This document shows positions 868-56,815 of a stretch of 64,000 nt of DNA, in pieces (within the stretch, counting starts at the first letter, position 1; the number at the start of each line of letters is the position of its first letter). Source of the stretch: Eubacterium sp. (GTDB lineage Bacteria > Bacillota > Clostridia > Oscillospirales > Acutalibacteraceae). The stretch lies in assembly GCA_017445905.1 (NCBI GenBank), contig JAFSRX010000024.1, forward strand, positions 106,764 through 170,763. The letters are read 5' to 3'. The notes below the pieces were generated by a model. It saw nothing but the letters and a program-made list of their open reading frames with translations, searched no databases and was not told where the DNA came from. The translations under genes were made by a program, and so were the position numbers.

Positions 868-960
868 GGAGAGTTGTCCGAGCTGGCCGAAGGAGCACGA
901 TTGGAAATCGTGTAACGGGCTACAACCTGTTCGAGGGTTCGAATCCCTTGCTCTCCGCCA
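868..960 (+). tRNA. tRNA-Ser (GGA anticodon)
   Basis: Class II tRNA with a long variable arm. The acceptor stem GGAGAGT (868-874) pairs with the 3' strand ending at 956. The anticodon stem CACGA/TCGTG encloses loop TTGGAAA, giving anticodon GGA at 903-905. The T arm carries GGTTCGAATCC, and CCA is encoded at 958-960. Its last 18-22 nt are copied repeatedly downstream (see the 951-1533 repeat). Confidence 0.97.
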
Positions 961-965
961 AAACA

Positions 966-995
966 AAAAGCACTGCCAATGGCGGTGCTTTTTTT
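966..995 (+). terminator. Terminator of tRNA-Ser
   Basis: AGCACTGCC (969-977) pairs with GGCGGTGCT (981-989) and is followed by a run of T. The same hairpin recurs in every unit of the downstream tandem repeat. Confidence 0.88.
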
Positions 996-1013
996 GGAGA
1001 GCAAGGGATTCGA
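996..1013 (-). repeat. Inverted copy of tRNA-Ser 3' end
   Basis: The 18 nt at 996-1013 are the exact reverse complement of tRNA positions 939-956 (T arm through acceptor strand). The terminator hairpin lies between them, so the read-through transcript could fold into an 18-bp stem around it. Confidence 0.92.
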
Positions 1014-1642
1014 ATAAAATGGGGACCCCCAAAAATCCAAAGATTTGTGGGGAGAGGAGAAACAAATGAAGTGATTGTTAGTATTTTGTTAAGCAAAATG
1101 CTTTAATCACGTAATTTGATTGGACGAGCTCTCCGCCAAAACAAAAAGCACTGCCGACGGCGGTGCTTTTTTTGGAGAGCAAGGGATTCGGATAAAATGG
1201 GGACCCCCAAAAATCCAAAGATTTTTGGGGAGAGGAGAAACAAATGAAGTGATTGTTAGCATTTTGTTAAGCAAAATGCTTTAATCACGTAATTTGATTG
1301 GACGAGCTCTCTGCCAAAACAAAAAGCACTGCCGACGGCGGTGCTTTTTTTGGAGAGCAAGGGATTCGGATAAAATGGGGACCCCCAAAAATTCAAAGAT
1401 TTTTGGGGAGAGGAGAAACAAATGAAGTGATTGTTAGTATTTTGTTAGGCAAAATGCTTTAATCACGTAATTTGATTGGACGAGCTCTCCGCCAAAACAA
1501 AAAGCACTGCCGACGGCGGTGCTTTTTTGAATTTTTAAAATATTATTAGTTTTATAACTGATATAATTTATATTATGCAATGCTTGAAAAAAAGTTTAAA
1601 ATATGTTATTGTTATATTGAAATAATCTGCGGAGATGATATT

Positions 1643-24283: not shown

Positions 24284-24467
24284 AGACGGGACTTTATTCT
24301 CAACTACGAAACAGGTCGTCGAAGAGAGAACGACCATCCGACCAACGGTTCCCAAAATTTGTTATCGGCTTGGAGCGCCGACAGATTTTGACCATTCGGC
24401 AGTTCTTATTGCTCCCTTCATCTGCCACTGGCAGCGGTCGCAAACGAACCATTTCAAGTCCCGTTAT
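24284..24467. repeat. Inverted and direct echoes of the tRNA-Leu T arm
   Basis: AGACGGGACTT at 24284-24294 equals tRNA-Leu positions 24520-24530 (direct copy). CAAGTCCCGT at 24457-24466 is the reverse complement of the same arm (inverted copy). Between them is hairpin-rich sequence, for example CTGCCACTGGCAG and GGTCGT...ACGACC, with no protein I can support. Confidence 0.75.
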
Positions 24468-24475
24468 AGAAAGAA

Positions 24476-24511
24476 AAACACCAAACATCCGAATGGATGC
24501 TTGGTGTTTTT
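24476..24511 (-). terminator. Terminator of tRNA-Leu
   Basis: An imperfect stem AAACACCAAACATCC/GGATGCTTGGTGTTT around GAAT, with T runs, lies directly after the tRNA 3' end on the minus strand. Confidence 0.85.
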
Positions 24512-24595
24512 GGTGCGAGAGACGGGACTTGAACCCGTACGAGTCGCCCCACACGCCCCTCAAACGTGCGCGTCTGCCGATTCCGCCACTCTCGC
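24511..24595 (-). tRNA. tRNA-Leu (GAG anticodon)
   Basis: Class II tRNA on the minus strand beginning GCGAGAGTGGCGGAAT. The anticodon stem CACGT/GCGTG encloses TTGAGGG, giving GAG. The T arm has GGTTCAAGTCC, and CCA is encoded (24511-24513). Its T arm is echoed downstream in inverted and direct form. Confidence 0.95.
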
Positions 24596-52855: not shown

Positions 52856-53012
52856 GGGTACGATGCCCCACATCGTGCCGAATAAGTGATATATTGCTTC
52901 GCAATGCGATATTAATTTGCGCAGCAAATTAGTGATATTTTTCGCTTCGCTCAAAGTGATATTTTCTTTTCTTCGAAAAGAAAGTTTAAAATTTTTTCGG
53001 AGAAAAAATTTT
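52856..53012 (+). repeat. Array of mini-hairpins separated by AGTGATAT
   Basis: Five perfect or near-perfect hairpins occur in a row: GGTACGATG/CATCGTGCC (52857-52879), ATTGC/GCAAT (52893-52905), AATTTGC/GCAAATT (52914-52930), TTTCTTTTC/GAAAAGAAA (52963-52983), AAAATTTTTTC/GAAAAAATTTT (52988-53012). Most have 3-nt loops. Between them stands AGTGATAT or a one-base variant (52885, 52906, 52931, 52955). The array fills the smpB-ssrA spacer. Confidence 0.85.
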
Positions 53013-53014
53013 AA

Positions 53015-53362
53015 GGGGATGAAAGGCTATCGACAGGTTCGGTGAGGCTTGGTCAGCGAGTAGCGGAGTTGCACCGCTTTAAAAGTAACACTTTAAAAAT
53101 AACTGACAATAATAAAACAGTTCTTCGCGCTGCCTAAGTGCAGTGCCGTCCTGATTAAGAGTGCCGCGGCTTAATTAAGGGCGTCGATCAGCGGCGCACA
53201 TGAACGGGGGATTGTCTCGGCTCCCGTCAGGAATAAGAGACTACCGTAGCTGAAAGGTTGTTTGCCATCGTTCAGTGAGGGGAATCCCAACGACAAACTA
53301 CACTCGTAGAGCCCTTGAGGAACTGAGTTTGGACGCGAGTTCGATTCTCGCCATCTCCACCA
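53015..53362 (+). ncRNA. ssrA: tmRNA (SsrA RNA)
   Basis: The acceptor GGGGATG (53015-53021) pairs with CATCTCC near the 3' end, and ACCA is encoded. The T arm reads GAGTTCGATTCTC. The tag frame after AATAACT is GAC AAT AAT AAA ACA GTT CTT CGC GCT GCC TAA, giving tag (A)DNNKTVLRAA by analogy with Bacillus, where the resume codon also follows AATAACT. Pseudoknot-rich 3' part. Located after smpB as usual. The 3' end is echoed downstream. Confidence 0.93.
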
Positions 53363-53369
53363 AATGAAT

Positions 53370-53395
53370 AAGCACCCCTTTGAGGGTGCTTTTTC
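53370..53395 (+). terminator. tmRNA terminator
   Basis: AAGCACCC (53370-53377) pairs with GGGTGCTT (53384-53391), followed by T residues. Confidence 0.88.
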
Positions 53396-53404
53396 ATTTG
53401 GATT

Positions 53405-53577
53405 GGAGATAAGAATCGAACAGGGCAATTTCGCAGAAATAGAAACAGTCCGGGGGACTGTTTCGGTGCCTGCGTGCGTGTCGGCGAGCGCAGAAGCGAG
53501 CCGAGCGATTCTCGCCATCTCACGAGTAACAATAGCAATTTAAATTAAGATTAAAAAGAGATGAGTTTCTCGCCATC
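53405..53577. repeat. Inverted and direct echoes of the tmRNA 3' end
   Basis: GGAGATAAGAATCGAAC (53405-53421) is a slightly shortened reverse complement of the tmRNA T arm/acceptor. CGATTCTCGCCATCT (53506-53520) is a direct copy, and TTCTCGCCATC (53567-53577) a second partial one. A perfect hairpin GAAACAGTCC-GGG-GGACTGTTTC lies between. No gene is present between tmRNA and the coat gene. Confidence 0.82.
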
Positions 53578-53590
53578 ATAAAAGTTTCTT

Positions 53591-56578: not shown

Positions 56579-56633
56579 TTTATAGGAGATATTTTCAATT
56601 AAATCTTAAGAAAGGAGTTAAAAACTGAATTCA

Positions 56634-56815
56634 AGCGCCAGAGCCCAAGGCAGTGAAAGATAAGAACTTCGACATTTTTGTTTTTGCTTTGAGCTGACGA
56701 GGCAAAGAGTTATCGAATTTTTCGGCGGATGCTCTTTCGTATCCCTTTGATGCGTTATGAAAAGGCAAAACTAATCGGAAACGGTTTCGACAAATTCTTT
56801 TCAGCAAAGGACATA
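56634..56815 (+). ncRNA. glmS ribozyme (glucosamine-6-phosphate-activated)
   Basis: The conserved core is present: AAGCGCCAGAGCCC (cleavage between 56634 and 56635), GAGCTGACGAGG, GAGTTATCGAATTTTTCGGC and CGGATGCTCTTTCG, plus a 3' domain ending near AAGGACAT. It self-cleaves when glucosamine 6-phosphate is abundant and lowers glmS expression. The exact 3' boundary is estimated. 232 nt separate it from the glmS start, longer than usual, because a 60-bp palindromic element and a heptad array lie in between. Confidence 0.92.

Follow-up and report, generated by a model that had tools for sequence, protein, structure and literature searches.

In the window (the whole stretch of 64,000 nucleotides from Eubacterium sp. 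that was analysed), the tmRNA gene is followed by a short insert whose two ends are copies of the gene's own 3′ part, one inverted and one direct, on either side of a structured core. The same layout, in which the gene is followed by CCA, a terminator, its own T-arm in inverted copy, a structured core and a direct copy of its own 3′ end, was found complete or partial at 16 of the 32 tRNA/tmRNA genes of this genome by reading the oriented 3′ flanks. It is known from an E. coli tRNA locus; here it occurs at many genes and differs between related species. The features of the three loci in the window are as follows.

53015..53362, + strand: tmRNA gene with the tag DNNKTVLRAA, whose 3′ end is the one copied (ARAGORN; Rfam RF00023, 146.1 bits)
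53360..53401, + strand: CCA and terminator-like hairpin, a palindrome that includes the CCA (inverted pair with 18-nt arms, 94% complementary; putative terminator function)
53404..53421, + strand: 5′ arm, the T-loop/T-stem/acceptor strand of the tmRNA in inverted copy, with a short internal stretch missing (own tail ranked 1 of 29)
53422..53505, + strand: structured core of type C with three hairpins (alignment of 8 sequences, consensus fold)
53442..53464, + strand: recurring hairpin GAAACAGTCC-GGG-GGACTGTTTC inside the tmRNA core
53506..53521, + strand: 3′ arm, a direct copy of the tmRNA 3′ end from C56 (repeat search, 16/16 nt)
53564..53579, + strand: second, decayed direct copy of the tmRNA 3′ end (12/16 nt)
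868..960, + strand: tRNA-Ser(GGA)
950..1528, + strand: tandem array behind tRNA-Ser, 178 nt × 3.3 (terminator, inverted tail, core of type B, short direct tail)
24511..24595, − strand: tRNA-Leu(GAG)
24453..24464, − strand: inverted copy of the tRNA-Leu T-arm (own tail ranked 1 of 29)
24284..24294, − strand: direct copy of the tRNA-Leu 3′ part, behind a core of type G (own tail ranked 1 of 29)

The inverted copy behind the tmRNA gene (TGGAGATAAGAATCGAAC) lies 42–59 nt beyond its 3′ end, and the direct copy stops short of the terminal CACCA. The tails of 29 RNA genes were cross-tested against 29 3′ flanks of the same genome, and own scores were compared with foreign ones. In both orientations the tmRNA's own tail ranked first of 29: the inverted match scored 22 (foreign mean 14.2, sd 3.2), which exceeds the 95th foreign percentile (20) and not the 99th (24.9), and the direct match scored 33 (foreign mean 13.8, sd 3.7, 99th percentile 23). 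It is unlikely that the tmRNA arms arose by chance. A first-pass annotation had described an inverted copy, two direct copies and a hairpin between the arms; the inverted copy, the hairpin and an exact first direct copy are indeed present, while the second is degraded here and better preserved at a locus of a relative (L055). Its claim that the tmRNA, tRNA-Ser and tRNA-Leu genes of the window have one layout in common also holds, given the 178-nt array behind tRNA-Ser and the arms found at tRNA-Leu. Within the array, the direct tails are at 1128, 1306 and 1484, and each is short (GCTCTCCGCCA).

The draft genome (G000) comprises 2.27 Mb on 75 contigs; its 31 tRNA matches and the tmRNA make up the 32 RNA genes. 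The carriers of the layout are L001, L003, L004, L005, L010, L011, L013, L014, L016, L018, L026, L027, L028, L030, the tRNA-Ser of the window and the tmRNA. When a score of at least 20 was required of each arm, both arms passed at nine of the 29 genes scored (L010, L013, L016, L018, L026, L027, L028, L030 and the tmRNA) and a single arm at six (inverted at L001, L003, L005 and the tRNA-Ser of the window; direct at L011 and L014). The flank of L004 was too short for this scoring, and L009 passes only through a neighbouring tRNA and its insert inside its flank. Of the own-matches in the 29 × 29 cross-test, 7 inverted and 10 direct ones lie above the foreign 99th percentile. Reversed flanks of 44 tmRNA loci from the genus gave 0 inverted matches and 1 direct match at the threshold, and chance or mere conservation of the T-loop is ruled out by the own-versus-foreign tail tests together with the reversed-flank controls.

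The first-pass annotation had also seen separate sequences, each derived from its own RNA; this applies to the arms, which match their own gene, and not to the cores, which are recurrent types across RNA genes. Type A consists of ACGAACTCC, a hairpin, GGGAG, a hairpin with AACAGTCC-RGT-GGACTGTT, and CGATAG, and in this genome it lies behind Arg, Trp, Pro, Ser and Tyr genes. Type C follows the tmRNA and two tRNA-Gly genes (the covariance model R2 gives 3 matches here), and type B, assigned by reading, follows the tRNA-Ser of the window, L026 and L027. Type G was found behind the tRNA-Leu of the window and on the 5′ side of one tRNA-Ser, as well as behind a Tyr-type inverted arm in another species; one of its three cores in this genome has no nearby RNA gene by ARAGORN. 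No known Rfam family was found at the elements tested. This third type-G copy (G000:C57:7243-7266, L321) sits inside a TTACGAG repeat, this core type not being confined to RNA genes. Upstream of the tRNA-Ser of L026 (the same locus as L045 and L098), a type-G core lies within a partial 5′ tRNA copy with the intact gene downstream, in the order tRNA bases 1–18, core, bases ~21–31 and an inverted copy of ~21–31, an arrangement that is the 5′-half counterpart of the 3′ layout.

Compensated changes were observed in 12 of the 22 pairs tested for type A (28 sequences; 3–7 in slid controls), and 8 of these are within the outer arm helix, in which 8 of 10 pairs are compensated and 81.8% of cells are paired. 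The arm pair, for which a covariance check had been suggested, thus does covary; with a single tail as the source of both arms the outer helix must do so, and its covariation is therefore weak support for a function. In type C, 10 of the 30 predicted pairs are compensated (8 sequences, consensus fold), and the internal core hairpins are better evidence for function than the arm helix. Opposite positions 57/58, the 5′ arms of 125 type-A elements show mostly Watson-Crick pairing or tandem GA (GA/GA in 50, TT/AA in 39, TC/GA in 23 and other combinations in 13).

The boundaries of the inserts are described in the tRNA numbering that we presume from reading (T54, R57 and T-stem 61–65). In the 99 type-A elements that have an RNA gene next to them, the inverted arm starts at the complement of T54, and its contiguous match ends at positions 63–68 in 82, most often at 65, the last T-stem base; longer inverted arms, to about position 73 or beyond, occur at L310, L317 and L212. 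The direct arm begins at R57 of the T-loop and could be placed in 87 of the 99; its R57 agrees with that of the gene in 85 of these 87, and 55 are identical through the CCA. In the cleanest inserts, a duplicated segment extends from R57 to roughly where the terminator T-run ends (48/48 bp at L241, 50/51 at L062), and near-complete duplication (at least 90% kept, at most 2 mismatches) is limited to 10 of 79 elements. These cleanest copies have the R57-CCA-terminator segment of about 50 bp on either side, which leaves the upstream RNA gene intact. Self-priming at the terminator hairpin is not favoured as the source of the inverted arm, since most inverted arms skip positions 66–76.

Related genomes show the same slot in different states. 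The tmRNA survey covered 49 genomes of the genus with 20 distinct tails, and 44 loci had at least 250 nt of flank; at a score of 20, at least one arm was found at 16 of them (13 inverted, 11 direct, 8 both) and neither arm at 28. The own tail ranked first of the 20 tails for 12 of the 13 inverted and 7 of the 11 direct matches. By reading, the slot is occupied, according to species, by types A, B or C, by another type in tandem (G045), by truncated forms or by nothing, and the arms fit the local tmRNA variant in G042, G023 and G034, with the exception of G029, whose arms suit another variant. No clean same-locus pair of empty and occupied sites was found in Clostridia; as an example, the occupied tmRNA locus of G003 and the empty ones of G031 and G020 differ by ~470 nt, which also hold other sequence. 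A divergent tRNA-Ser pair bears an insert on each tRNA in G007 (C10, L240) and none in G000 (C59, L024/L029), its flanks being exchanged as if the pair had been inverted; this comparison suggests that the distal copy is the native one, and it gives a suggestion only because the flanks are swapped between the species. The empty-site comparison proposed in the first-pass annotation has yielded occupied and insert-free loci in relatives, with a clean pair solely at E. coli RtT, and the ordinary prophage or ICE scars that it had named as the opposite outcome did not appear.

Type A was traced with a letter pattern that requires conserved letters, so that conservation within it reflects the query; among 98 genomes, own and relatives together, it occurs in 11, and these belong to a single genus. 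The type-A covariance model R1 matches in 37 of 60 genus genomes and in 12 of 393 genomes across the class, own included. A set of 125 distinct type-A elements was taken from selected loci, mainly the best-scoring ones; in 99 of them a tRNA or tmRNA lies at most 450 nt upstream, 17 have no recognised RNA gene despite at least 450 nt upstream and 9 are too close to the sequence end; several of the 26 elements without an assigned gene still show a tRNA-like tail and CCA by reading. Type C has an RNA gene upstream at 23 of 30 loci examined, and in these 23 the inverted arm matches the local gene in 20 (score at least 20) and the direct arm in 18 (score at least 24). Across the genus, many different tRNAs and tmRNA are followed by cores of one and the same type, whose arms fit each local gene. 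Records with the type-A motif comprise 43 stretches titled Eubacterium, Oscillospiraceae, Ruminococcaceae or other Clostridia, many from ruminants.

Beyond the genus, five other families of the class have weak R1 matches that adjoin tRNAs and carry own-tail arms (L089 and L109; L091/L102; L093; L094/L105; L097). The own tail ranked first of 8, both inverted and direct, at seven of these class loci and at the E. coli locus; these seven were assessed by score, and L091, the second unit of the L102 array, by reading. Of the 25 foreign class loci viewed, 8 are beside tRNAs; loci without an RNA gene nearby were seen in G089, G479, G410, G425 and part of G142, G166, several of them being intergenic repeats with the same hairpin. 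An ACAGTCC-NGN-GGACTGT hairpin was observed in intergenic-looking repeats of other genera (G089, G479, G425; loci L087, L088, L099, L100, L107, L092, L103 and L110), with no RNA gene within ~1.5 kb.

The tyrT repeats of E. coli have long been treated as a local curiosity. The first-pass annotation knew of no named family with the present description, which proved mistaken, since the RtT RNA of E. coli (rttR, tyrT/tyrV locus, RF00391) shows the same layout, with tandem 178-bp units that likewise lie behind a tRNA. At tyrV of MG1655, each unit ends in a direct tail equal to the last 19 nt of the tRNA (19/19 at +159, +337 and +515), and an inverted T-arm copy (GGGGAAGGATGAGAA) lies at +59, as in the Clostridia inserts. 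The features common to both are a unit behind a tRNA that holds its 3′ end and an inverted T-arm with an outer helix, the latter being an RtT feature read here from the E. coli locus; rttR is annotated as ending at the CCA of the direct copy. The copy number of RtT varies, a 91-nt query matching 4692 of 5426 E. coli genomes at 1–10 places (median 3), and in E. coli AH50, which has no RtT at the locus, the tRNA tail is joined to the flank that follows the last direct copy of MG1655. By model, in contrast, the RtT core is unrelated (R1 against the E. coli locus, best E 1.8). RF00391 gave no match in the window at gathering score, none in 12 element loci (E ≤ 1) or in further Clostridia loci (E ≤ 5) and none above the cut-off in 293 Clostridia genomes, with one below it. 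The Clostridia inserts are thus not RtT by Rfam's model, and the likeness is one of working rather than of shown membership. A Clostridia tRNA-Tyr (G194, L270) has a sub-cut-off RtT match (29.1 bits, cut-off 45) with its own inverted and direct arms by reading; this RtT-like unit, seen at a single locus, comes from another family of the class.

Other differences concern the surroundings. By reading, RtT has no terminator hairpin between tRNA and unit, whereas the Clostridia inserts usually have one, and the latter use many tRNAs and tmRNA with several core types, RtT being read here at the tyrT locus. According to a passage of PMC4986893, many tRNA operons of E. coli give rise to RtT RNAs. Like the inserts, tRNA-integrated genomic islands (tyrosine recombinase) have the tRNA 3′ end duplicated at their far side; unlike them, the inserts have no room for genes, carry an inverted arm and have target-matched ends for many tRNAs. 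REP/BIME sequences are likewise small, hairpin-rich, non-coding and multi-copy, and we know of no REPs with ends copied from a target gene. A passage of PMC2965389 reports rtT-like sequences among BIMEs. A description of the general pattern was not found in the open-access papers searched, passages of PMC2658671 and PMC4710047 included.

Several observations bear on how the inserts move and recombine. The cores of L026 (Ser) and L027 (Tyr) in this genome are 97.7% identical and their arms differ. The nearest core lies in the same genome for 23 of 99 type-A elements (500 label shuffles: mean 8.1, highest 23), and overall the distance between cores of one genome is hardly smaller than that between cores of separate genomes (medians 0.291 versus 0.322); within-genome spread gains little support as the main mode. 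At L042, L036/L064, L106, L228 and L254, the 5′ arm comes from the local gene and the 3′ arm resembles another tRNA, L042 being a chimera with poorly paired arms. Between L106 and L043, which belong to different species, identity is 96% as far as the T-loop end of the core; beyond it L106 has a Pro-like, not a Leu, tail, homology being lost within about 5 nt of R57. One tRNA-Arg gene of two species shows 94% identity from the gene onward and about 75% upstream; its tail and direct arm share four substitutions, and the T-stem part of the inverted arm is unchanged. At L011, the second tRNA-Gly of this genome, both arms fit the tail variant of relatives and not the gene's present tail. From the tail changes at tRNA-Arg and L011, the arms look captured at insertion, and direct copies seem exchangeable afterwards.

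We propose, as a reading to which we give an even chance, that the inserts are a selfish or semi-selfish structured element copied into T-loops, with ends rebuilt from the target in an RtT-like manner. In its anatomy, the core adjoins the T-loop end of the copied tRNA/tmRNA 3′ segment, and the left end is the inverted T-loop/T-stem strand (54 to ~65, sometimes 73). The T-loop stretch is common to nearly all tRNAs and tmRNA. The core would spread by copying (template switching or gene conversion), and each new copy would take its arms from the target because the T-loop would act as crossover on both sides. Later, arrays could grow, shrink and swap distal halves by homologous recombination, the inverted arm would not need to track later tail changes, and the conserved hairpins may serve copying or a released RNA. 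This proposal is supported by own tails outscoring foreign tails in the flanks, by shared cores and by the same slot in different states, and further by the RNA gene upstream of 99 of 125 type-A elements, the constant arm boundaries, the clean duplications, the loss of homology near R57 in L106, the joint change of tail and direct arm at tRNA-Arg and the empty site of E. coli AH50. Against it stand the 17 of 125 type-A elements and one type-G core without a recognised RNA gene nearby, the few clean duplications (10 of 79), the cores hardly closer within a genome and the lack of a clean Clostridia pair; neither a copying event nor any machinery came to light, and the conserved, compensated structure exceeds the needs of passive copying, which counts against a copied insert. 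The earlier suggestion of one recurring process, with a small element at tRNA-like 3′ ends, stands insofar as target-made ends recur in the genome and the genus, the copying event itself being inferred. A wider and rather doubtful extension is that a phylum-crossing class of transposase-less selfish inserts would use the universal T-loop as a landing site and have both ends rebuilt from the target, each copy being disguised in this way as the 3′ end of its host gene and E. coli RtT being its first known, unrecognised case.

One rival reading is a functional RNA cassette, as proposed for the rtT RNA of E. coli: it would be transcribed from the tRNA promoter, with selection keeping the arms complementary, the direct arm serving as a tRNA-like 3′ end for processing and the inverted arm closing the helix. 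Both the cassette and these details have, in our view, a minor though real chance of being correct. Compensation in the outer helix and the core hairpins and the annotation of rttR to the CCA of the direct copy speak for it, as does the mostly Watson-Crick or tandem GA pairing at 57/58, tandem GA being reported for RtT RNA in passages of PMC7657543 and PMC8250186, from which its position is taken (GA facing GA was counted here in type A only, 50 of 125). However, a terminator-like hairpin usually separates gene and insert in Clostridia by reading, both arms are absent at threshold in 28 of 44 tmRNA loci, arms at times keep an old tail after a gene change (L011, tRNA-Arg), the poorly paired chimera of L042 exists and the outer-helix covariation is automatic with a single source tail. 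For the same reason of a terminator between gene and insert, a stem that competes with 3′ processing, another earlier suggestion, is weakened for Clostridia. Alternatively, the 3′ part of the primary transcript, from the T-loop to the end of the terminator, would be reverse-transcribed with the core and placed behind the terminator, a route that we consider improbable. Clean duplications do span the T-loop to about the end of the T-run, the presumed transcript end, and some copies are cut short on the distal side of the core; nevertheless, no RVT_1 was found in G000, G002, G007, G031 and G032, which have 13, 35, 20, 17 and 16 type-A matches (drafts, 88–97% complete). RVT_1 is present in 16 of 60 genus genomes, including G051 and G048 (17 and 14 type-A matches), and a reverse transcriptase as driver was set aside, as its presence does not fit copy number in these draft genomes.

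Scars or minimal satellites of tyrosine-recombinase elements (prophage, ICE) at tRNA 3′ ends share one trait with the inserts, namely a distal native 3′ end and a proximal copy that completes the gene, as in classical tRNA integration. They are a poor fit and very unlikely: the ~85-nt cores are too short for a recombinase gene, and a single core type is used at many tRNAs whose tails differ, whereas an attP is generally specific to one tRNA. Such scars are not known to include an inverted T-arm copy. The exact type-A core pattern occurs in 0 of the viral contigs scanned, and a prophage origin was rejected on this ground; the E. coli RtT unit gave one match in 50,697 phage records, a 515-kb Salmonella record in which RtT is annotated. 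Hardly more than a slight chance is given to a REP/RAYT-like or IS200/IS605-like single-strand transposase moving hairpins in trans. The cores are rich in hairpins and RAYT-length Y1 transposases occur in G000, G002, G051 and G032, but the drafts of G007 (20 type-A matches) and G048 (14) have no Y1_Tnp match, and the core hairpin was found at 0 of 6 RAYT-type loci examined (ten fetched), the three scanned for repeats being flanked by other palindromes. A Y1 transposase as driver was discarded, since its presence does not track copy number and the loci examined carry other palindromes. At L277, L278 and L279, genes for RAYT-like Y1 transposases are flanked by palindromes of their own (TAGGTACAGGGGACGG..., TGGGGACAGTCCCCA).

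That this layout recurs in another phylum, at many tRNAs and at tmRNA, with empty and occupied sites and matched ends, points to a general process. It raises the question of how a short insert obtains ends that match its target, which is testable in E. coli, and it may explain odd tRNA-tail repeats that confuse the annotation of att sites and small RNAs.

Other elements were noticed nearby. The window contains a glmS ribozyme at 56623–56812 (RF00234, 89.1 bits). Near the tRNA-Gly of L010, positions 1213–1285 and 1106–1170 gave two matches to Rfam Gut-1 RNA, one of 63.1 bits (cut-off 50) and the other weaker, and similar hairpin repeats were seen by eye at 52885–52990 of the window; Gut-1 looks like another hairpin repeat of these genomes.
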